The notes below the pieces were generated by a model. The model searched no databases and was not told the origin of the DNA. It worked only from the letters and a program-made list of their open reading frames with translations. Positions 10,171 to 48,134 of a stretch of DNA of 64,000 nucleotides are shown here, piece by piece (the first letter of the stretch is position 1; each line of letters begins with the position of its first letter). The position numbers and the translations under genes are program-made. Source of the DNA: Terriglobia bacterium (GTDB lineage Bacteria > Acidobacteriota > Terriglobia > Terriglobales > Acidobacteriaceae); the NCBI GenBank assembly GCA_020073565.1, contig JAIQEY010000006.1:84907-148906 (forward strand). The letters are read 5' to 3'.

Positions 10171-11577
10171 ATGAGCGACAGTTGGAAGCGATGGGAGGGT
10201 CAGTTGGTCAGTGACAAGTTCCCGCTGCAGCGTTTGTTGGGTCGGTCCGAGCATGGAACTGTTTTTCTGGTCGACAAGAGCGCGGGCGGCAGGCCACAGA
10301 CGGCCATCAAATTTGTTCCCGCAGCTTCGGTCGATGCGAATGAGCAGTTGCGGCAGTGGAAGGTGGCGGCCGATCTGGATCGTCCCAATGTGATTCGCAT
10401 TTTCGAATCGGGCCGGTGCGACCTGGGCGGCACTGAGTTTCTTTACGTGCTGACCGAGTATGCAGAAGAGGAGTTGTCGCAGATTCTTCCGGAGCGGGCG
10501 CTCACGGACCAGGAAGCGCGGCAGGTGCTGGATGCTGTCTTGAAGGGGTTGGCATACGTTCACGCCAAGGGTTTTGTGCATGGAGGCATAAAGCCCTCGA
10601 ATATTCTGGCTGCCGGGGACGTGGTGAAAATATCGAGCGATTCACTTCGTGCCGCAGGGGCAGGGAAGCTGCGGCAGGGAGAGAAGAGTGCGTACGACGC
10701 GCCGGAGACGGCGAGGGGTCAACTGGGGCCGCCGGCCGATGTGTGGTCGCTGGGCGTTACCCTGGTGGAAATGCTGACGCAGCGGTTGCCGGTTCTGGAT
10801 TCCGAGGCGGGGAATGAAAGGGCTTTGCCCGATGGAATTCCGCAACCGTTTCGAGAGATCGTCGAAAACTGCCTGCAAATCGATCCTGCCAAGCGGTGGG
10901 CGGTGGCGGAGATTGCTGCTCGGCTGGACACTGGAAAGAGAGAAGCGCCTGGTGCCCAAGCGCTGCCCAGCGAACCTGCGGCGCGGGCCGGGAGGGAAGC
11001 AGGGGCAGCAGTCTTATCGTATGCAGGCGATCAGAAGACATCTGCGAAGTGGCCTTATGCGCTGGCGTTCGTTGCGGTGGTGGTGGTCGCGGCGGTCTTG
11101 GTTCTGAAGCCGAAGGCACCTGTCCCTTTTTCGGAGGCGCGGACAGGAGTGTCCGCGCTACATCCAGAGGCTGCGGGAAGCGGGGCTACCGAAGCTTCTT
11201 CTTCCGCACATGCCGAACCCGCGGAGGCGGGGTCCGATCAGGGTCGCAATGACGAGATGTTGACGAAACCTGGTACCCGCGGCGGTGTGGCGACTCGGGT
11301 CATACCACGTGTATCGCCGGGTGCGCGGCATACGATCCGGGGCAAGATCCGAGTGCCTGTGAAAGTAGATGTGGATGCAGCAGGCAACGTCACACAAGCG
11401 CGGCTGCAATCCGCCGTGGCGAGCGAGTATTTTGCGCGTCTTGCGCTGGAGGCGGCTCGGGGCTGGAAATTCAAGCCGGTGCGGGCCAATGGTCAAGCGG
11501 TCCCGAGCGAGTGGGTGGTGCGGTTTTATTTCAGTCGGGGTGGGACCGATGGCTCGGCGGAGCAAACTGCGCCATAG
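10171..11577 (+). CDS. Pseudokinase - transmembrane - TonB C-terminal fusion protein
   Basis: The 468-residue protein joins three parts. Residues 15-253 are kinase-like: glycine loop LGRSEHGTVF, ATP lysine K47 in TAIKFVP, APE-like YDAPE (175-179) and DVWSLGVTLVEML (190-202). The catalytic loop HRDxKPSN is changed to HGGIKPSN (137-144), so the catalytic Asp is lost, and the DFG motif is replaced by SDS (about 156-158). It should therefore not phosphorylate in the usual way. One membrane helix follows (about 294-313), then a low-complexity linker, then a TonB C-terminal domain (about 384-454) with VPVKVDVDAAGNVTQARL and AARGWKFKPVRANGQAV. Family logic puts the kinase-like part in the cytoplasm and the TonB domain in the periplasm. 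The linker is partly encoded by a REP-like palindrome (11137-11158). No ExbB/ExbD genes are nearby. Confidence 0.85.
   Translation: MSDSWKRWEGQLVSDKFPLQRLLGRSEHGTVFLVDKSAGGRPQTAIKFVPAASVDANEQLRQWKVAADLDRPNVIRIFESGRCDLGGTEFLYVLTEYAEEELSQILPERALTDQEARQVLDAVLKGLAYVHAKGFVHGGIKPSNILAAGDVVKISSDSLRAAGAGKLRQGEKSAYDAPETARGQLGPPADVWSLGVTLVEMLTQRLPVLDSEAGNERALPDGIPQPFREIVENCLQIDPAKRWAVAEIAARLDTGKREAPGAQALPSEPAARAGREAGAAVLSYAGDQKTSAKWPYALAFVAVVVVAAVLVLKPKAPVPFSEARTGVSALHPEAAGSGATEASSSAHAEPAEAGSDQGRNDEMLTKPGTRGGVATRVIPRVSPGARHTIRGKIRVPVKVDVDAAGNVTQARLQSAVASEYFARLALEAARGWKFKPVRANGQAVPSEWVVRFYFSRGGTDGSAEQTAP
11137..11158. repeat. REP-like palindrome inside the pseudokinase-TonB coding sequence
   Basis: GCGCGGACA and TGTCCGCGC form a perfect 9-bp stem around a 4-nt loop, followed by TACAT. 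The GCGCTACAT end is the same as in intergenic copy A. The element lies in frame in the linker between the membrane helix and the TonB domain, where extra residues would be tolerated. Confidence 0.65.
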
Positions 11578-20001: not shown

Positions 20002-20398
20002 AATGAACCTCCACATTCAATGTTTCCTGCGAATGACGCGAACTCTTCGGGAGCTTGCGCCCGATTCAATCTCCACCCTGTTTCGAGGACTAACCCATGT
20101 GCGGAAGAGAATAGCACCCGCCCCTCATTTCTCTGAAGCGGTTTAACACATTTCGCGACAAGGACAGCCCCCGTGTTGTGTGTTCTAGATCACGAGCGTG
20201 AGTGACTGAAATCTCGACGGGGAACCTTCCAAATTTTGTATGGCTCAAGCGCTTTAGCTCTGTACAAAAGCGGTTTTGCACTTTTCCCTTGACATCCGCA
20301 GACTAGTGGTTTTGTATTAGCGGACATCTATGCCGATTTGCGGCTGGCAAGGGTCAAGTGGGGACAGGTTCGGGAACCGAGTATCAGGAGGCGCCTCG
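20002..20398. promoter_or_regulatory. Shared regulatory region of GH3 and TonB receptor with three LacI-type operator motifs
   Basis: This 397-nt region holds AAGCGGTTTA (20136-20145), the perfect palindrome AAGCGCTT within AAGCGCTTTA (20247-20256) and AAAAGCGGTTTT (20266-20277). All have the central CpG and A/T-rich flanks of LacI-family operators. The third lies just upstream of a promoter-like TTGACA. The first overlaps the presumed -35 area of the GH3 gene. The same motif recurs twice in front of the lacI-type gene at 30478. Confidence 0.6.
20289..20318 (+). promoter_or_regulatory. Predicted sigma-70-like promoter of the TonB-dependent receptor
   Basis: TTGACA (20289-20294) is followed after 18 nt by TGTATT (20313-20318), four of six matches to TATAAT. 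It lies 81 nt before the ATG. Read by eye; not tested. Confidence 0.45.
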
Positions 20399-23300
20399 AT
20401 GCGCATTTCACGGTGTTCGTGGATGGTGGTTGCGGTTGGGTTTTTATCCTTGCTGATGCTAGAAACTGCGGTGGCGCAGTCGGATCGTGGCACGCTAGCC
20501 GGCACCATTCTCGACAGCTCCGGGGCGGTCGTTTCCAATGCAGCCATTACCGTAACCGGAGCGGACACGGGAACGGTGTACGAGGCCGTATCCGGTTCTT
20601 CTGGCGCCTACCGAATCCCAGACATTAGACCGGGCGCCTACAACGTCAAAGTGGCCGCCACGGGATTCAAGACCGAGGAGCGCACCGGTGTCGTCATCCA
20701 AGTCAACACCGTCAGTTCCCTCGACATCACCATGCAGATCGGTAGCGCTCAAGAGACCCTGACAGTGGTGGCCGACGCGCCCACCCTACAGACGGAATCG
20801 TCCGATATTGGCACGGTCGTGGACAAGCGACAGATTCAAGACTTACCCCTGGCCCTCAATTCCACAGGACAGAGCCACTTGCGGTCGACCGAATCCTTTG
20901 TCTTCCTGGCTCCCGGTACGGCCGGTCCTGGTACAAATAGCGACTCACCCTCGTCTGGCATTTTCGAATCCAAGCTTTCCGGCGGACAAAACTTCAGCAC
21001 AGAAGTGCTTCTCGATGGGGTGAGTATTGTACACGCGGAATTGGGTTCAACGTTCGATGAGAACGCTCCCTCCGTGGAGGCTCTAAACGAGTTCAAAGTA
21101 ACAACCTCGACCATTCCAGCGGAATTTGGCAGGACCTCAGGAGGTGTGGAGAGTTTCAGTACGAAATCCGGAGCGAACACGTTTCATGGAACGGCATTCG
21201 ACATTCTGCGCAACGACAAGCTGGATGCAAATTCCTGGTTTAACAATTACGTGGGGGCACCCAAGCCCACGGATCATCAAAACGACTTTGGCGGAAGTTT
21301 GGGTGGTCCAATCTGGATTCCCGGACTTTATAATGGCCGAAATAAGAGCTTCTTCTTTTTCTCGTGGGAGCAATATCGGAACACCGAAGGCACAACGAGT
21401 GTGACGACGCTGCCTACCGATCTGGAACGCACCGGCGACTTCTCCGCGTTGCTGGGTGCTCCTCTTGAAGGCGTTACCAATCCATGCGACGGCACGCCGG
21501 TTTTGAAAGGACAAATCTTCGATCCTGCCACGACCGCAGAGTGTGGAGGAACAGGCCGGAAAGCATTCGCGGGCAACATCATCCCGGGAGACCGCATAAG
21601 TCAAGTGGCTTTGAACGTGCTTGATTTCCTTCAGGTTCATCCCAATGTTGCACCGAACCCGGGCAACCTTAACGGCCTGATCAGCAACTTTCTCTTTCTC
21701 TCCACGAAACCAGTACGAGATACAACCATGACGTTCCGCATTGACCAAGACTGGGGTAACGCGAACAAGTTCTGGTTCTCTTACAGCAGTCGTGATCAGG
21801 AACAGTTAAATGGAACGCCTGCCCTTCCACCCCCGCTGGATCAGAACTTTTTTAAATCGCGTTTCTCCCACTACATACGCTTTAGTTGGGACCGTACCAT
21901 CAGCCAGACTCTACTGAACCACTTCACCGTTGGCTTTAACCGGCTCAATGACCCGAGTAAAGGGGTAGCCGTAACCGGGCAAGACTGGGAACAGACGTTA
22001 GGGATAACCGGGGCTAGCGGTATCGCGTTTCCACAGTTCGGATTCGGAGGAAGTCCGCTCAATGTCGGATATCAGGGTTTTGGCGGGGGAAGTTTCGATA
22101 ACGCCATCCCCAATAGCCTGATATTCGCCGACAGTGTCTCCTGGGTCCGAGGACGTCATTCCCTCCGTATGGGATTCGAGTGGCGGCACTCACAATTCTC
22201 CAGGATCGCCAATGCCAATACTTCCCCTAACTACAGTTTTGAGAATCTGCAAACGGCAGTTGCCGCCAATGACACGCAGACCGGCGATCCCTTTGCCAGT
22301 TTCCTGCTCGGGCTTCCGAACGAGGAGAGTTTGCAAATCTCATCGCATAATCCCCGTTGGATCTCAAATTATTATGTGGGTTATATCCAGGACGACTTCA
22401 AGTTCCGGAGGGATCTGACGTTTAACATTGGTTTCCGCTACGACGTAGACACACCGCGACACGAAGCAGAAGGTGCTCAGTCTGTCTTAAGCCTCACAAC
22501 CTTAAACAGCGGCAACGAGGCCGTGCCCATCTCACCCAGTGTGCCGGGTGCGCTGATTTATGGCCGGAGCGCCACGGGCCTGAAGACTTATTACAAAGAC
22601 TTCGCGCCGCGCTTGGGCTTCGCCTATGCACCGGAAAAGTTGTTCGGCCACCTGCCCAACACTGTGATTCGTGGTGGATACGGGATTTATTATTCCGCCC
22701 TCAGCTATTCTGATTTTGGAGACTCCTTTACCAGCGGGACAACGGTGAATCCGGACTTCAAATCGCAGGACGGTTTTACTTCTAGTCCCGCACAGTCGCT
22801 GGATGCTGGTTTTCCCAGCTTCACCCATCCCTCCAATGCCAGCGATCCGTCGTTGCTGAACGGGGGATTTCCAAACTACGGCGCAGCTGAGTACGGGCGC
22901 CCCGGCATGATTCAAAACTGGAGTTTCGAAGTCCAAAATGAACTGGCGCGGGATCTTATCCTGAGCGTAGGGTACGTGGGTACGCGTGCGACGCGCTTGC
23001 GTTCGAATCTGGTGCAGGTCAATAGCATACATCCCGAGTTTTATTCCTTAGGCACAAAGCTCAATGATCCGATCAGCAGCGTGGAAGGCCAAGCCACCTT
23101 GGCGAGCCTTGGCATTACCGAGCCGAGTTGGTTTCGCCCGCTCTACGGTGACGGCGAGCCGATCGGTCAGTTGCTCCGGCCTTTCCCGCAGTTCCAGAGC
23201 ATAAGTTCCGGTACCGCGGAGAATGTTGGCCAGTCCTCGTTCAATGCCCTGGAAATGAAGCTCGAACGGCGTTTCCGAAACGGATTGAACCTGCTGGCCT

Positions 23301-24079
23301 CATATACGTTCTCAAAGACCCTTACCGACGCCGACAGTACCTTCCCGACCTTTTCAGGATTCGCCTCCAACAATTTTGGCGCGCAGAACCCGTTCAATCT
23401 GAAAACCGAAAAGGCGCTAAGTTATCAGGATACGCCGCACGCCTTGGTGATCAGTTACCTTTACGAACTGCCCGTCGGTCCCGGAAAGAAATACCTGAAC
23501 CATGGCATAGCCAGCAAGGTGCTTGGCGGCTGGCAAATCAGCGGAGTACACCGGTATCAAAGTGGCTCCCCTGTCATCATGAATAGTTACGCGCCGTCCC
23601 CGCCGTTCAGTGGCGGCAACTTCAAGTACAGCCTCATACCGGGAGTGCCGATTTACAGCCCGGACAAGGCATCTTTCAACCCGAACCTGTCAACCGGCTG
23701 CCAAGAAAACACCACGGACGGGACCTTTACCCCCCTGAATCCGAGCAACAACTACTTCAACTGCGCTGCGTTCCTCGACCAAAACGCCGACGGCCTTGTT
23801 GCACAGCGCGGCTATACCTTTGGAAATTTGCCCTTGACCCTTGGCAATGTCCGCAGCGATCCCTACTTCAGCGAGGACTTTGCGATTATCAAACGCCTTC
23901 CGATCACGGAGTCTCATGTGCTGAGTTTGAAGGTCGATATCCCCAACGCTTTCAATCGGCATGTCTTCGGGACTTTGGATGGCTATATCGCGTCCAGCAC
24001 CTTCGGTGTACCCAAGGGTCCCCGGGGGGTCATCAATGCCAGACGGCAAATCCAGTTCACATTTCGCTATCAATTCTGA
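20399..24079 (+). CDS. Oar-like TonB-dependent receptor with N-terminal carboxypeptidase-regulatory domain
   Basis: The 1226-residue outer-membrane protein has a signal peptide ending ...TAVAQ. Next comes a CarboxypepD_reg/Cna-B-like domain (about residues 28-110, GTLAGTILDSSGAVVSNAAITV). A plug-like region follows (about 120-250) with VDKRQIQDLPL and TSTIPAEFGRTSGGVESFSTKSG. A large beta-barrel ends in the aromatic TFRYQF, a usual outer-membrane insertion signal. ATG 20399 has AGGAGG 8 nt upstream and removes 23 non-signal residues from the ORF start. Acidobacteria encode many such receptors, usually for uptake of oligosaccharides or other large substrates. The divergent GH3 gene and shared operator-like sites suggest a beta-glucoside substrate. 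A clear terminator follows. Confidence 0.92.
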   Translation: MRISRCSWMVVAVGFLSLLMLETAVAQSDRGTLAGTILDSSGAVVSNAAITVTGADTGTVYEAVSGSSGAYRIPDIRPGAYNVKVAATGFKTEERTGVVIQVNTVSSLDITMQIGSAQETLTVVADAPTLQTESSDIGTVVDKRQIQDLPLALNSTGQSHLRSTESFVFLAPGTAGPGTNSDSPSSGIFESKLSGGQNFSTEVLLDGVSIVHAELGSTFDENAPSVEALNEFKVTTSTIPAEFGRTSGGVESFSTKSGANTFHGTAFDILRNDKLDANSWFNNYVGAPKPTDHQNDFGGSLGGPIWIPGLYNGRNKSFFFFSWEQYRNTEGTTSVTTLPTDLERTGDFSALLGAPLEGVTNPCDGTPVLKGQIFDPATTAECGGTGRKAFAGNIIPGDRISQVALNVLDFLQVHPNVAPNPGNLNGLISNFLFLSTKPVRDTTMTFRIDQDWGNANKFWFSYSSRDQEQLNGTPALPPPLDQNFFKSRFSHYIRFSWDRTISQTLLNHFTVGFNRLNDPSKGVAVTGQDWEQTLGITGASGIAFPQFGFGGSPLNVGYQGFGGGSFDNAIPNSLIFADSVSWVRGRHSLRMGFEWRHSQFSRIANANTSPNYSFENLQTAVAANDTQTGDPFASFLLGLPNEESLQISSHNPRWISNYYVGYIQDDFKFRRDLTFNIGFRYDVDTPRHEAEGAQSVLSLTTLNSGNEAVPISPSVPGALIYGRSATGLKTYYKDFAPRLGFAYAPEKLFGHLPNTVIRGGYGIYYSALSYSDFGDSFTSGTTVNPDFKSQDGFTSSPAQSLDAGFPSFTHPSNASDPSLLNGGFPNYGAAEYGRPGMIQNWSFEVQNELARDLILSVGYVGTRATRLRSNLVQVNSIHPEFYSLGTKLNDPISSVEGQATLASLGITEPSWFRPLYGDGEPIGQLLRPFPQFQSISSGTAENVGQSSFNALEMKLERRFRNGLNLLASYTFSKTLTDADSTFPTFSGFASNNFGAQNPFNLKTEKALSYQDTPHALVISYLYELPVGPGKKYLNHGIASKVLGGWQISGVHRYQSGSPVIMNSYAPSPPFSGGNFKYSLIPGVPIYSPDKASFNPNLSTGCQENTTDGTFTPLNPSNNYFNCAAFLDQNADGLVAQRGYTFGNLPLTLGNVRSDPYFSEDFAIIKRLPITESHVLSLKVDIPNAFNRHVFGTLDGYIASSTFGVPKGPRGVINARRQIQFTFRYQF

Positions 24080-39234: not shown

Positions 39235-42012
39235 GTGATCGGTCAGAACATCTCGCACTACAAGGTCGTCGAGAAGATCGGCGGCGGGGGGATGGGTGTC
39301 GTCTACAAAGCGATGGACACGCGATTGCAGCGGTTTGTCGCTCTCAAGTTCCTACCCCCAGAACTATGTCGCGATACCCAAGCGCTGGCCCGCTTCCAAC
39401 GTGAGGCACGGGCAGCGTCCGCACTCAACCATCCGAACATCTGCACGATTTACGACATCGGCGACGAGGACGGACAAGCCTTCATTGCCATGGAGTACCT
39501 GGAAGGCTGTACGCTGAAGCACCTGATCCGCGGAGCGCCGATCGACAATGATCGCCTGCTCGCGCTGGCGGTAGAGATCGCAGATGCGTTGGACGCAGCC
39601 CACAGTGAAGGTATCGTTCATCGGGACATCAAGCCCGCGAACATCTTTGCGACCAAACGCGGACACGCGAAGATTCTCGACTTCGGCTTGGCCAAGTTGA
39701 CCATGGTCGCAACCGGCGTCAGCGGCACGGGCCTTACTGGTGGCACGGTTTCTGGAAGCGCCGATTTCCTGACGAGTCCGGGGGCAGCCGTAGGTACGGT
39801 TGCGTATATGTCGCCGGAACAAGCCAAAGGAAAGGAACTCGATGCGCGGACGGATCTCTTTTCGTTTGGGGCAGTCCTTTACGAGATGGCAACGGGCACG
39901 CTTCCGTTTCGCGGCGACACCTCCGCGACGGTCTTCGACGCGATCTTGAACCGTCCCCCGCTTGGGCCCTTGCGACTGAATCCCGACCTGCCGCCGAAAC
40001 TGGAACCGATCATCGGCAAAGCCTTGGAAAAAGATCGTGACCTGCGGTACCAGGTTGCTTCGGAAATACGTGCCGACCTGAAGCGTCTAAGGCGCGAAAC
40101 TGATTCGAGTCGCAGTGGGAAGGCGATCTCGGGATTCTCGGACGAAGAAGTTCTGCCCGCACAGCGGTTTGCGCCTCCTCCGGCCCAGGTAGTGGATAGT
40201 TCTTCGGTGGTGGCCGCGGTGAAGCAGCACAAGTGGGTGGCCGCCGGCATTGGTTTGGTGGCGCTGATGATTCTGGCGGTCGCAGGCTACGGTGTCTACT
40301 CGATGTTTTTCGCAGGCCGCGCGACCCATTTCCAGACCTTCAGCATCACCCAGGTTACGACCTCGGGCAAAGCGGCTCTCACCGCGGTTTCGCCCGACGC
40401 TCGCTATGTCCTGTCGGTCTTGAACGAGAAGGGTCTGCAGAGCCTGTGGCTGCGCAACATCCCCACCAGCAGCGACACGCAAGTGATTCCGCCGGCGCCC
40501 GCTTCCTACAAGAGCCTGGCATTTTCGCCGGACGGGAACTATCTCTACTTCATTAAGGCTGCGGACGCGACCAACACGCACTTCGATCTGTACCGGGCGC
40601 CGGTGCTGGGCGGCGTTCCCCAGACCGTGGTTCGGGCTATTGACAGCGACCTCACGTTCTCTCCGGACGGGCACCGCCTCGCCTTCGCGCGCGCCAATGC
40701 TCCCGAGGCTGGCAAGTACGGTCTGACCATGGTGAATCTGGACGGCACCGACGAGCAAGTACTCCACGTGGGGGCTCCCGCTTCCGATGTTCCTTCGTCG
40801 GTTGCGTGGTCACCGGACGGCAAGGAAATTGGCTACAAACTTTCCAGGCCGGACGGGTCTCTGGGTGGCCTCGCGCTCCTGAACGTGAGCAGTGGGAAGA
40901 TCAGCACATTCGCCACCTTCAGAGACATGCTGACAAATGACTTCAAATGGATGCCAGACGGCAACGGTCTCCTTGCGCTCTATTCGCAGAAAGGACCTGA
41001 CTACTTTCAGCGGGCGCAGATCGGGTTTGTTCCGGATGGGAGCAGCCGCATCAACCCTATTACCCGGGACACGAGTAGCTACGCGACCTTGACGCTTTCC
41101 GCAGACGGGAAAACCCTGGCGACGGTCCAGACCAAGACTTCGCAGAACCTCTATTTGCAACGCGCCGCGGAGAACGCTGCAGGTGAGCCCAGCGCGGTGC
41201 TGCCACAGGGCCAACTGGTTTACTGGTTTGCATGGACGGCGGATGGCAATCTGGTTTTCACGGACTTTTCGCGAATTCTGCGGACCGGTATCAGCGAGGC
41301 GGTGCCGACGCGCCTGCTGGGCGATTCTAACGCCGCCATCGTAGAACTATCAGGGTGTGGCAGTCACTTACTGGTATTTTCCTGGGCATTTCATGGTGGT
41401 ACGAACTCGACCAACATCTGGCGCGCCAGCGCAGACGGCACCAATCCCACGAAGTTGACCGATGGGAAAAACGACCGTTCCCCGGTGTGCACGGCAGACG
41501 GGAAGTGGATGTACTACTGGAACCAGGAATTGCAGCAACTCTGGCGTGCGCCGCTGGAAGGACCGGGCAAGCCCGAGGTCGTGCCGGCGGGTGTGGCTCC
41601 CAAGACGCTCCCAGCTGGGACTGCGCTGAGCACTTCTTCCAACGGAAAATACCTGGCCTACGTTCTGGCCACGATACCGACGCCGGAGGATCCCTACCCC
41701 CAGTACAAGATTGCCGTGTTGGATTTGGCGGCGACCGCTACGCCTCCCCGCCTGATTGACGCGGATGAACGAATCTCGAGCGGCGGCTTGGCATTCACCC
41801 CGGACAGCAAGGCGGTAGCTTATCCCATCCGCGAGAGTGGCGTCGACAACCTCTGGGTGCAGCCGCTGGATGGATCGTCGGGCCGCCGGATCACGTCTTT
41901 CAGTGCCGAACAAATCTCCGTCTTCGACTGGTCGCCGGACGGCAAGAGCCTGGCCATATTACGTGGCCATACCGACTCAGACGTCGTCCTGATCCGCGAT
42001 ACCTCACAATAG
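39235..42012 (+). CDS. Membrane Ser/Thr protein kinase with periplasmic PD40/WD40-like propeller
   Basis: The 925-residue protein starts with an active-looking Hanks-type kinase domain (about residues 9-285): [14 protein letters not shown] glycine loop, VALKFLPPE lysine, [13 protein letters not shown] catalytic loop, [11 protein letters not shown] Mg loop, and [24 protein letters not shown]. The activation segment carries an unusually long Gly/Ser/Thr-rich insert (about 155-185). A membrane helix (about 335-357) leads to a TolB-like propeller (about 370-920), with repeated FSPDGxxLYFI/[20 protein letters not shown] blades. The layout is common in Acidobacteria; the propeller probably senses a periplasmic ligand. 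GTG 39235 fits the conserved start IGQNISHY. A porin and a PstS-like gene follow, which suggests but does not prove a common function. Confidence 0.93.
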
Positions 42013-44255: not shown

Positions 44256-47200
44256 CTAGAAGTAGAACTTCAACGCTAACTGCATGATGCGGTGCCCGAA
44301 CTTGTTGGTCATGATGCCGGCCGTGCCGACGTTCGTGGGAAGCGCGCCGAAGTTCTCGTACCTAAGGTTCAGCGCCGCATCATTAGCTCCACTTCCGAAG
44401 AACGGGTTGACGTTCGTGAACCCGTAGAGTGGATGGTTCAGGAAGTTAAAGGCCTCCGCCCGGAATTGGAGGTTCTTCGACTCGCCCATCTTGAAGTTCT
44501 TGAAGAGGGTTAAGTCGCTGTTCATGAACTTGGGGCCGTGGATGTACGGAATCCGATAGGTTCCGTTGTTACCCGGTGTTGGCGACTGAAAACACGTAGC
44601 GTTGAAGAGCTGGTGCGCCGCAAGGTGGGCGGTGGGGTCGCAGACAACCAGAGGCACAGAAGTTTCGTCGGGCGTGCCCACGATGTAGCGGCCGCCGTTG
44701 TTGTTGCCGCCGTTCGTGCCGCCTAGAGCGCACTGCCCATATTGGAAGCATTGGCTACTGGGATTGGCAGAGTTGTAGACCCCGACCATGGCGATGTTGT
44801 AGCCCTGCGAGCTTTGCGTGAAGCTGCTGGGATAAGTAAACAGCGGCGCACCGGCGTCAAACTCGGTGATCCCGCTCAGCTGCCAGCCATCGAGCACTCC
44901 ATTCAGGACCGCATTGTTGCCCAGATGGCTCTTACTCACCGAGGGGAGATAGACGTTGTAAGAAATCTTGAGCGCCTGCGTACGGTCCCAGGGCAGAGGT
45001 CCGTAGGTGCGGCTCAGATCAAACGAGTTGGCGGAGTTATTGCCAAGTACCTTACTGAAAGTGTAAGTGACCCAGTAGTTGATTCGGCCCTTCGCTCGCG
45101 ACGCGGTCAGCTGAAACGAATTGTAATTGGATTTCAGCGCGTGGGCCGCCGGGTAGATTCCTGCGATGTTGGGATACAGGCGATAGGGATTGTACTGCTC
45201 CATCCATTGTCCGGGCCAATCCACGCCGGTTTCTGTGCCTTGCGCTACCGGGTTGATATTGGGCCAGCCGACCATGTACTTGCTGCGATTGCCGACGTAG
45301 GCGAGGGAGACCAGTGTGCCGCTCGGGATTTGCTGCTGGACGGTGAGGTTGTAGGAGTAGGTGCGGGGCATCTTATCGTCAGTGGCCACAGCGACGCTCG
45401 GCCAAGGCAAAGCCGCACCCTGGGTATAACTGCTGAGCTGCGACAAATACAGACCTCCGCCCGGCGAGAAATAGTTAAAGGATTGCAGGGGAGGATTCTG
45501 CACCAGCTTAAAGCCGGCTGAGATTCCTTCATCGCGGAAGAAGTTGGTGCCGAACCCGCCGCGAATAACCGTGTTGCCCTTGCCGAACACGTCCCAGGCA
45601 AAACCCGCTGAAGGCGCAAGTTGCCAACCCACCGGCTTGTAGCCAGACAATGGAACGCTGGGATTGTTTGCATGGGTTTCAATGCCCGTGTACGCCGCGA
45701 TGCCGGCAGTGGGGTCGTACTTTGAAGGATCGAAGATGGCGATGTTCCCCTGCTTGTTGTACCACCAGCCGAGGTGGTTAATCCGCGTGCCGTAGTTCAG
45801 GGTTAGGTGGCGACCAATCTTCCAATTGTCGAGCGCGTAGAAATCGTACTCGTTCGCGGCAAAATCGAGATTCAACGTCGGCGTCCCCTGGGAGAACATG
45901 GAGACGTGGCCCAGGAGCAGATCAGCGTAGGCATTGCCGGTAAGCGAGTTCCAGGAAGCCAGCGTGATCGCGCCCTGGTCGAGGTAGGTGTTGTCCCCGG
46001 TGCGCTGCGTCCAGGTTTCCCGGCTCCAATAGAATCCCGCCTTGAGGAGGTGGGTGTGAAGGACTTTTGCCAAGTTCTCCGAGATGGTGTACGTCCACTT
46101 CGGGGAGTTCTGGTTGGGGATGACGCCGCCTTCGTTGAAGAAATCGGCGACACCCGTGGAGGCGACATCGCCATCGACATTAGGGATGACATCGAGCCCG
46201 TTGTTATAAACGCCGTAGTAGGGGTATCCCAATTTCAAGGCAGAAACGGCGGCAGGATCCGTCAGGTAGTTGCGGTAGAACAAGTGGCTGGCGGTGAAGT
46301 TGACTTCGTTGGTCAGAGTCGACGAAAAAGCGCGAGTGAAGTTCGTCGCCACCGAGTGCGAACTGTTCGAGCCGGCCACGTTGCCGGGATACGGATTTGT
46401 CGGCCAGGATTGCCACAACCCGTAGGGGAAGGGATAAGTCTCGCCTTCGTGATTGTAGCGAACCGAGAGATGGTCATTTGCGGTCGCGGCATAGTCGAGC
46501 TTCACTAATTGCTGCGCTCGCGGCTGCTGGTTCACGATATCGGTGATGTAGTTGTAGCCGCCATTCGTGGCTGGGTCGGCGTTGGGCGTGGGCAAATGGT
46601 AGAGGCTCATGAGAACCTGTCCGCCTGGGTCAATCGCCGTTGACAGGATTTTTCCGGTAGTTGCTTGGTCGCAGTAGCTTGGCAGGCTCCCAGGCGTCCC
46701 TTGGCAGACCGGGGTCCCGGTGATCCCGGCCAGGCTTGCAAGACCGGGATCGCTAAAGTTGCCCGTGCGCATGTCAGCCGTGGGAACCACGGTCTTCTTC
46801 ACGCCCAGATCCACGCCCTGACGCATCCATTCGAATCCGGCAAAAAAGAACAGCTTGTCGCGATTCTTATTGAACTCAGTTCCCGGAATGATCACGGGAC
46901 CGCCGATATTAAAGCCAGGGTATTGATAGCGACTGGATGGTCTGGCTACGCCGTTAGCGTTGGCCTGCCAGTCGTTGGCGTTCATGCTGCCGTCGCGAAT
47001 ACTGTAATAAGCCTCGCCATGAAAGTTTTTGGTACCGGACTTGGTGATGGTTTCCATCACGGTGGGTCCGTTGGGATTCTCCGCTGAGTAACTGGCGGTC
47101 TCGACCTTGACCTCCTGAATCATCTCGAAGTTCGGCGTCACTGCAGCGCCGCCGTTGAAGCCAGGATCAACGACATTGCCGCCGTCGCTGACTACTGCCA

Positions 47201-47810
47201 ACTGGTCGAAACGGGTTCCGTTCACAGTGTAGGCGCCCGCCCCTCCGTTGAATGCCGCCGTCTCACCCGTGTACACGCCATTCCAACCGCCGCTGTTTTG
47301 TGCGCCGGGCAGAATCTTCAAAAGTTCGACAGCGTTGCGGCCGATGATGGCAAGATTGTCGACTTGCTTGGCGGTTATCGTGTAGGAGACATCGCCCGAG
47401 CTGACAGGAATAATCTCGGTTGGCGTTCCGGTGACCTCGACGGTCGCGGCGGTTCCGGCAACTTTGAGTGCGATCTGCTTCAAGTCAATCTGATCATTGA
47501 TGTGCAGTACGATTCCGCTGTTCGCGAAGGGAGTGAACCCCTTGGCTTCCACTCTGAGGTCGTACGTTCCCGCGGGGATGCCGATCAGGGAGAAGAAGCC
47601 TGCGGAGTTGCTCGCGGTTTCACGAGCAGTGTTGGTGGCTTGCAGAATGAGACGCACCTTGGCGCCGGACACCACGGCCCCGGACGAATCGTAGACTGTG
47701 CCGGTCACCGTGCAGGTTCCGCTGCCTTGCGCAAGGGCGGCGGCGGCCCACAACAGCAGAGTTGCGGAAACAAGACCAGAGACTGCTTTCTTCATCCATG
47801 TGTGACCCAT
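44256..47810 (-). CDS. Oar-like TonB-dependent receptor with carboxypeptidase-regulatory domain
   Basis: The 1184-residue outer-membrane receptor has a signal peptide (VSGLVSATLLLWAAAALAQ) and a CarboxypepD_reg domain (about residues 30-112, CTVTGTVYDSSGAVVSGAKVRL). A plug region follows, with VSYTITAKQVDNLAIIGRNAVELLKILPG, EVKVETASYSAENPNGPTVMETITKSG and NFHGEAYYSIRDG. The long barrel ends in QLALKFYF. I chose ATG 47810, with GAGG 6 nt upstream; ATG 47795 is possible. It is divergent from the GH35 gene with 324 nt between. With GH35, GH53 and the sensor pair downstream, uptake of galactan fragments is a likely role (inference). Confidence 0.92.
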   Translation of the reverse strand: MGHTWMKKAVSGLVSATLLLWAAAALAQGSGTCTVTGTVYDSSGAVVSGAKVRLILQATNTARETASNSAGFFSLIGIPAGTYDLRVEAKGFTPFANSGIVLHINDQIDLKQIALKVAGTAATVEVTGTPTEIIPVSSGDVSYTITAKQVDNLAIIGRNAVELLKILPGAQNSGGWNGVYTGETAAFNGGAGAYTVNGTRFDQLAVVSDGGNVVDPGFNGGAAVTPNFEMIQEVKVETASYSAENPNGPTVMETITKSGTKNFHGEAYYSIRDGSMNANDWQANANGVARPSSRYQYPGFNIGGPVIIPGTEFNKNRDKLFFFAGFEWMRQGVDLGVKKTVVPTADMRTGNFSDPGLASLAGITGTPVCQGTPGSLPSYCDQATTGKILSTAIDPGGQVLMSLYHLPTPNADPATNGGYNYITDIVNQQPRAQQLVKLDYAATANDHLSVRYNHEGETYPFPYGLWQSWPTNPYPGNVAGSNSSHSVATNFTRAFSSTLTNEVNFTASHLFYRNYLTDPAAVSALKLGYPYYGVYNNGLDVIPNVDGDVASTGVADFFNEGGVIPNQNSPKWTYTISENLAKVLHTHLLKAGFYWSRETWTQRTGDNTYLDQGAITLASWNSLTGNAYADLLLGHVSMFSQGTPTLNLDFAANEYDFYALDNWKIGRHLTLNYGTRINHLGWWYNKQGNIAIFDPSKYDPTAGIAAYTGIETHANNPSVPLSGYKPVGWQLAPSAGFAWDVFGKGNTVIRGGFGTNFFRDEGISAGFKLVQNPPLQSFNYFSPGGGLYLSQLSSYTQGAALPWPSVAVATDDKMPRTYSYNLTVQQQIPSGTLVSLAYVGNRSKYMVGWPNINPVAQGTETGVDWPGQWMEQYNPYRLYPNIAGIYPAAHALKSNYNSFQLTASRAKGRINYWVTYTFSKVLGNNSANSFDLSRTYGPLPWDRTQALKISYNVYLPSVSKSHLGNNAVLNGVLDGWQLSGITEFDAGAPLFTYPSSFTQSSQGYNIAMVGVYNSANPSSQCFQYGQCALGGTNGGNNNGGRYIVGTPDETSVPLVVCDPTAHLAAHQLFNATCFQSPTPGNNGTYRIPYIHGPKFMNSDLTLFKNFKMGESKNLQFRAEAFNFLNHPLYGFTNVNPFFGSGANDAALNLRYENFGALPTNVGTAGIMTNKFGHRIMQLALKFYF

Positions 47811-48134
47811 ATTCCACCTCGGAGCGTCGGGCTCCCTTCCAAACTGGGGAGTTGGCCAGAAGAGTCCACTCCTGACTCGCCGCTTGAAATCTACTCTCAG
47901 TTGGTGGATCGCGAATCCTACCAAAGTCGGATTGGAGATAATTTTCTATAGGCGGGTATCGAGAGAGGTACGAGAACGAGAATTCCAAAAAAACGTAGTT
48001 CTTCTTCCAATCCATGCCAACCGGCGCAGGGCGACGGATAATCTTGCCTTGATTCTCCCGTCTGCCAAGCAATCCAACTTTAGGCGGATTATGCTAGAGA
48101 AGCCAGGTGTTAGATTCATTGCGCAAGGATTGCC
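47811..48134. other. Divergent intergenic region between TonB receptor and GH35 gene
   Basis: This 324-nt gap should hold promoters for both genes. On the plus strand TATGCT (48090-48095) is a fair -10 element without a good -35. No AAGCGGTTT-type operator occurs here, so the LacI-type regulator is not expected to act on this pair. Confidence 0.4.

Follow-up and report, generated by a model that had tools for sequence, protein, structure and literature searches.

A conserved acidobacterial family of membrane pseudokinases with a TonB C-terminal-type or SPOR domain

Introduction

Bacterial pseudokinases are numerous and few of them have a known role. MviN is a multi-pass flippase. PknB phosphorylates its pseudokinase tail, to which FhaA is recruited; a second membrane pseudokinase scaffold, EssB/YukC, acts as a structural hub (PMC12599244). 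In TonB-receptor complexes, the TonB box is added to the last strand of TonB by beta-augmentation (PMC6699858), and SPOR domains bind peptide-stripped peptidoglycan strands, enriched in the septal ring (PMC6895207). A 2025 review of bacterial pseudokinase families mentions neither TonB, SPOR nor Acidobacteria, and the literature searched, with most subscription journals and preprints outside reach, holds no description of a family joining a kinase-like part to TonB_C. This agrees with the original prediction for the locus studied here, which knew of no described system of this kind.

The gene is located at 10171..11577 (+ strand) of a 64,000-nucleotide stretch of DNA from a Terriglobia bacterium, the whole of which is referred to as the window. 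The original prediction proposed that a dead kinase in the cytoplasm, joined through the membrane to a periplasmic TonB domain, could pass a cytoplasmic state to outer-membrane receptors.

Results

The gene has an ATG start and encodes a membrane pseudokinase of 468 amino acids with a TonB_C domain; full-length orthologues were present in 20 or more relatives. All features described below lie on the + strand. Pfam matched Pkinase at residues 20-249 (E 2.7e-28, 99.5 bits against a cut-off of 31.7), inside a pseudokinase domain of about residues 13-257 (10207..10941), and TonB_C at residues 394-454 (11350-11532; E 6.1e-9, score 36.7 bits, cut-off 24.6), inside a periplasmic TonB C-terminal-type domain made of residues 364-468 (11260..11574). 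A full-length AlphaFold model built on 23 orthologues showed a kinase fold with a pLDDT mostly above 90, a single helix at residues 295-311 (11053..11103), predicted to be transmembrane from the model and the hydropathy of the family, and a folded, well-predicted C-terminal domain. Residues 260-294 and 313-362 were disordered in this model, the latter forming a linker with a pLDDT below 50 (11107..11256). The best PDB matches of the model were kinases, M. tuberculosis PknB among them (Foldseek, TMt 0.77). Modelled separately with 80 relatives, the C-terminal domain matched the TonB-CTD of E. coli (1xx3, TMt 0.78), Salmonella and Pseudomonas, and TonB was its first match in a profile search of PDB sequences. 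The product was therefore confirmed as a Hanks-type kinase fold followed by one membrane helix and a TonB-CTD fold, the arrangement originally predicted.

The kinase part was likewise confirmed to retain its fold motifs and ATP lysine, to have HGG for HRD and to lack DFG. Residues were counted in 107 distinct relatives from the class Terriglobia. The beta3 (VAIK) lysine K47 (10309..10311) was Lys in 103 and Arg in 3 of the 106 members with a letter at this position. The catalytic-loop asparagine (Asn144) was retained in 105/107 members, the APE glutamate in 104 and the DxW aspartate in all 107. The HRD motif was replaced by HGG at residues 137-139 (10579..10587), and the catalytic position was His in 56 members, Arg in 44, Ala, Gly and Cys in 2 each and Asp in 1, so that it was basic in 100/107 and lacked the aspartate in 106/107. 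A further loss, missed by the original prediction, concerned the alphaC glutamate, replaced by Q62 (10354..10356) ahead of a near-invariant W63. Among the residues listed for the 107 members, the alphaC position was never Glu and the DFG aspartate position never Asp. The same-genome kinases aligned alongside the family contained the canonical catalytic residues. HRD Asp, DFG Asp and alphaC Glu, which define an active kinase, were absent from the window protein and from the family, except for one HRD Asp; the sole member read with Asp at the catalytic position (L132) has HGD.

In the window protein the DFG region reads S-S-D-S, S155-S156-D157 (10633..10641) replacing xDF, and an Asp directly follows the lost DFG aspartate in 105/107 members (SxD motif). 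The spacing between the catalytic-loop Asn and the DFG Asp is usually 13, as in PKA and PknB. A shifted register, in which Asp157 would be an intact DFG Asp at a spacing of 13 from Asn144, was ruled out by L220, the closest active relative found, which belongs to another class and has DFG at a spacing of 12. This protein reads HRDIKPSNVLLVGGRWKISDFG and aligns without a gap to HGGIKPSNILAAGDVVKISSDS, which places Ser156 at the position of the DFG Asp and Asp157 at that of the Phe.

Of about 20 kinase loci found in the same genome, 19 have the HRD Asp; a full-length search of this genome revealed no second protein of the same architecture. One locus (L029, contig C23) has HSSLEPAK for HRDxKPxN and GYG for DFG and is a second likely pseudokinase. 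The window itself contains a kinase-domain protein with propeller repeats at 39235-42012.

Relatives joining a kinase-like part to TonB_C were found widely in Terriglobia. Most genomes of the same genus carried a full-length orthologue, and further ones came from other genera and families within the class. An earlier scan of genome contigs with the single protein as query gave no match; a GTDB genome scan using an alignment as query gave at least 500 confirmed loci, and the 80 retained were acidobacterial by record title. A family member was present in 79 of 250 sampled Terriglobia genomes. Outside this class, the hits read from a scan of the phylum were only kinases with intact motifs. One copy per genome scanned was typical, with several in a few genomes and up to five matches. 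In one case (L186, genome G105) two family members formed a tandem pair, one being a lone kinase-like domain and the other having a different C-terminal part.

In a tree of 91 kinase domains the family was separate from active kinases (SH-aLRT 98), indicating that the catalytic losses are old. In comparison with the nearest orthologue (77% identity), dN/dS was lowest in the outer domain (0.20), followed by the pseudokinase (0.29) and the linker (0.40), and reading frames of the family were intact in very many genomes. Judged by these comparisons, the pseudokinase family was shown to be under purifying selection across the class Terriglobia. On the evidence of its sequences, it is a conserved pseudokinase family and no decaying gene, with a predicted loss of phosphotransfer.

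Several genera of the same taxonomic family, and one further family within the class, had the same pseudokinase with a different C-terminal domain. The swapped tails fitted one alignment and matched SPOR (PF05036) in 6/6 proteins tested (Pfam, E 1.8e-4 to 4.2e-3), with individually weak scores, two of which were at or above the cut-off. The tree required two changes between TonB_C and SPOR, and no genome among those read contained both forms. The catalytic Asp was missing in 19/19 SPOR-type members, and the alphaC Glu and DFG Asp in all of them. The beta3 Lys was replaced by Arg in 15/19 and the first glycine of the loop was mostly lost; Trp63, Ser156 and Asp157 were mostly kept. Conservation of these three residues despite the change of the beta3 Lys suggests that they serve a binding surface and not nucleotide chemistry. 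From the swap it follows only that one outer domain can take the place of the other in evolution; it does not imply that they do the same job.

TonB_C (PF03544) was matched in 80/80 members tested. In this TonB_C subtype the tyrosine of the TonB YP motif was replaced, mostly by Val (PxVP or PxVS), and a median of 36 residues followed the conserved Trp, versus 25-27 for the majority of TonB_C proteins encoded in this genome. The roughly 10 extra C-terminal residues were modelled as a strand beside the last strand of the sheet (residues 458-467, 11542..11571), a feature that the majority of ordinary TonB_C proteins in the genome lack. Neither the YP motif nor the free edge strand of a TonB energy transducer was thus found, and we infer that the receptor-binding edge would be blocked by the modelled extra strand. 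An SxxxH-type ExbB-contacting motif was present in 1/105 membrane helices, and His was absent from the helix in 103/105 members. The missing His is a weak point, since the TonB encoded beside exbB in the same genome (L002) also lacks it, together with SxxxH. An argument that the linker is too short to reach the outer membrane was dropped; with 50 disordered residues, its shortness is not clear. The literature searched contained nothing on peptidoglycan binding by TonB_C. Two other loci (L180:1141-2031 and L181:1097-2002) encode the same TonB_C subtype and helix behind a different, Cys/His-containing N-terminal part, with no pseudokinase.

The pseudokinase gene stands alone at its locus. Upstream and divergent lies a small gene that we take by eye to be pyridoxamine-oxidase-like, with what are presumably gap, pgk and tpiA farther upstream; the convergent genes downstream appear by eye to be of the formate dehydrogenase type. 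No conserved neighbour or operon partner was found across the family loci, whether TonB_C-type or SPOR-type. Candidate partners, named by eye (gap/pgk at 9 loci, an RNA methyltransferase-like gene at 14, a response-regulator-like plus a sensor-like gene at 10), were not conserved across the family, and none of them adjoined the gene at the SPOR-type loci. The original statement that no ExbBD is nearby was correct for the neighbouring genes read; six MotA/ExbB-family genes occur elsewhere in the genome. The two outer-membrane receptors noted in the window were also recovered, as CarboxypepD_reg plus outer-membrane beta-barrel (Oar-like) proteins at 20330-24079 (9 kb away) and 44256-47924 (33 kb away). 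Beside the family genes, neither a receptor gene nor exbBD was conserved.

The genome encodes 30 TonB_C domains, which is many for one genome. Besides the pseudokinase, TonB_C was fused to GAF in two proteins, to TIR and to PilZ (L005, L191, L006 and L188, on contigs C56, C31, C96 and C65), indicating that a regulatory domain joined to TonB_C is a recurrent design in this genome. Three other TonB_C proteins (L001, L187 and L193) have by eye a degenerate receiver-like start; Pfam gives TonB_C alone.

Discussion

The conserved catalytic loss and an outer domain that can be swapped for SPOR suggest that a sensing or scaffolding role at the cell envelope is more likely for this family than the powering of outer-membrane transporters. 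The explanation we favour, and give about an even chance of being correct, is that the protein is a single-pass inner-membrane pseudokinase acting as an envelope scaffold or receptor. Its outer domain would dock on the envelope, and its inner domain would recruit a partner. The docking site would be peptidoglycan in the SPOR forms; in the TonB_C forms it could be either peptidoglycan or a protein of the periplasm. On the cytoplasmic side, the pseudokinase may recruit, dimerise with or be phosphorylated by a partner, for which the roughly 20 active Hanks kinases in the cell are candidates. An envelope state could in this way be coupled to a cytoplasmic response without phosphotransfer by the protein itself. 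MviN and EssB/YukC are precedents for a membrane pseudokinase scaffold. A broader idea, which we regard as tentative and rather doubtful, is that Acidobacteria have a class of inner-membrane signalling proteins combining varied cytoplasmic modules (pseudokinase, GAF, TIR or PilZ) with a TonB-type periplasmic module, which in the pseudokinase family at least would have been converted from an energy transducer to an envelope sensor interchangeable with SPOR.

SelO is a divergent kinase with new chemistry. An unlikely alternative to the envelope scaffold is that the present protein is likewise an enzyme of changed chemistry, or a nucleotide-dependent switch, in which Lys47 and Asn144 hold a nucleotide and Asp157 takes over the salt bridge to Lys47. 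The high conservation of these three residues and the mostly basic catalytic position (His or Arg) are consistent with this possibility, as is the precedent of the DYD kinases and POMK, where an acid in the DFG region replaces the alphaC Glu; in the DYD kinases a second Asp has been modelled as pairing with the residue at the beta3 position (PMC12599244). Asp157, however, stands at the Phe position and not at the Asp or Gly position, and the SPOR-type members are conserved despite having mostly lost both Lys47 and the first loop glycine.

The mechanism originally proposed is, in our view, quite unlikely, and less likely than an envelope scaffold or receptor. In this regulated TonB, the pseudokinase would read a cytoplasmic state and TonB_C, energised by ExbBD encoded elsewhere, would contact outer-membrane receptors. 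The true TonB-CTD fold, found with a TonB_C match in every member tested, argues for it, as do the six MotA/ExbB-family genes and the GAF, TIR and PilZ fusions of the same genome. The link to receptors is nevertheless not supported: TonB_C is replaced by SPOR in sister lineages, the YP tyrosine is lost, an additional strand is modelled next to the one to which a TonB box would pair, and no receptor or exbBD gene is conserved alongside the family; the missing helix His argues weakly against it, L002 being alike. Recent decay of a dead kinase, which the catalytic residues missing from the window protein could suggest and which the original prediction tied to active-site residues persisting in close orthologues, is highly improbable and was ruled out by orthologues sharing the same losses family-wide, by the dN/dS of 0.29 and by the many intact reading frames.

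A single pseudokinase that occurs with either of two outer domains, the ligand of SPOR being known, constitutes a natural experiment and offers a testable route to the role of this pseudokinase. It would also demonstrate that energy transduction to the outer membrane cannot be assumed from a TonB fold. Annotation would be affected, as genes of this kind easily receive the names 'TonB family protein' or 'protein kinase'.

Among known systems, TonB shares the C-terminal domain fold, the inner-membrane anchor and the periplasmic linker; it differs from the present protein, in which a kinase-like part of 290 residues precedes the helix, the YP tyrosine is missing, an extra C-terminal strand is present and the gene has no linkage to exbBD. 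The C-terminal domain of myxobacterial AgmX/PglI (NF033768) has a similar TonB-like tail, matched weakly at 16.8 bits, below the 40-bit cut-off, and the window protein is hence no member. PASTA kinases such as PknB, one of the best fold matches, combine a kinase fold, one helix and an extracytoplasmic envelope-binding domain, but PknB is active and carries PASTA repeats. EssB/YukC is a part of Firmicutes type VII secretion with other motif changes and has, to our knowledge, no TonB_C or SPOR domain. The likeness lies in its being a pseudokinase that crosses the membrane once and serves as a scaffold (PMC12599244). Two described groups are distinct in their motifs: GLW pseudokinases have GLW for HRD and Leu or Trp for the beta3 Lys, where the present family has HG[HR] and Lys, and DYD kinases have a beta3 Arg and DYD for DFG, where it has a beta3 Lys and SxD (PMC12599244). 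MviN/MurJ of Mycobacterium (ActPs3) resembles the family as a membrane protein with a cytoplasmic Hanks pseudokinase, an envelope context and changes in all three catalytic motifs; it has lost the beta3 Lys and its activation loop is deleted (PMC12599244), whereas here Lys47 is kept and an APE-type segment is present. The present proteins further differ from MviN in having one helix, TonB_C or SPOR outside and a host of another phylum. Collectively, these comparisons place this large, acidobacterial and apparently undescribed family among the bacterial membrane pseudokinases.
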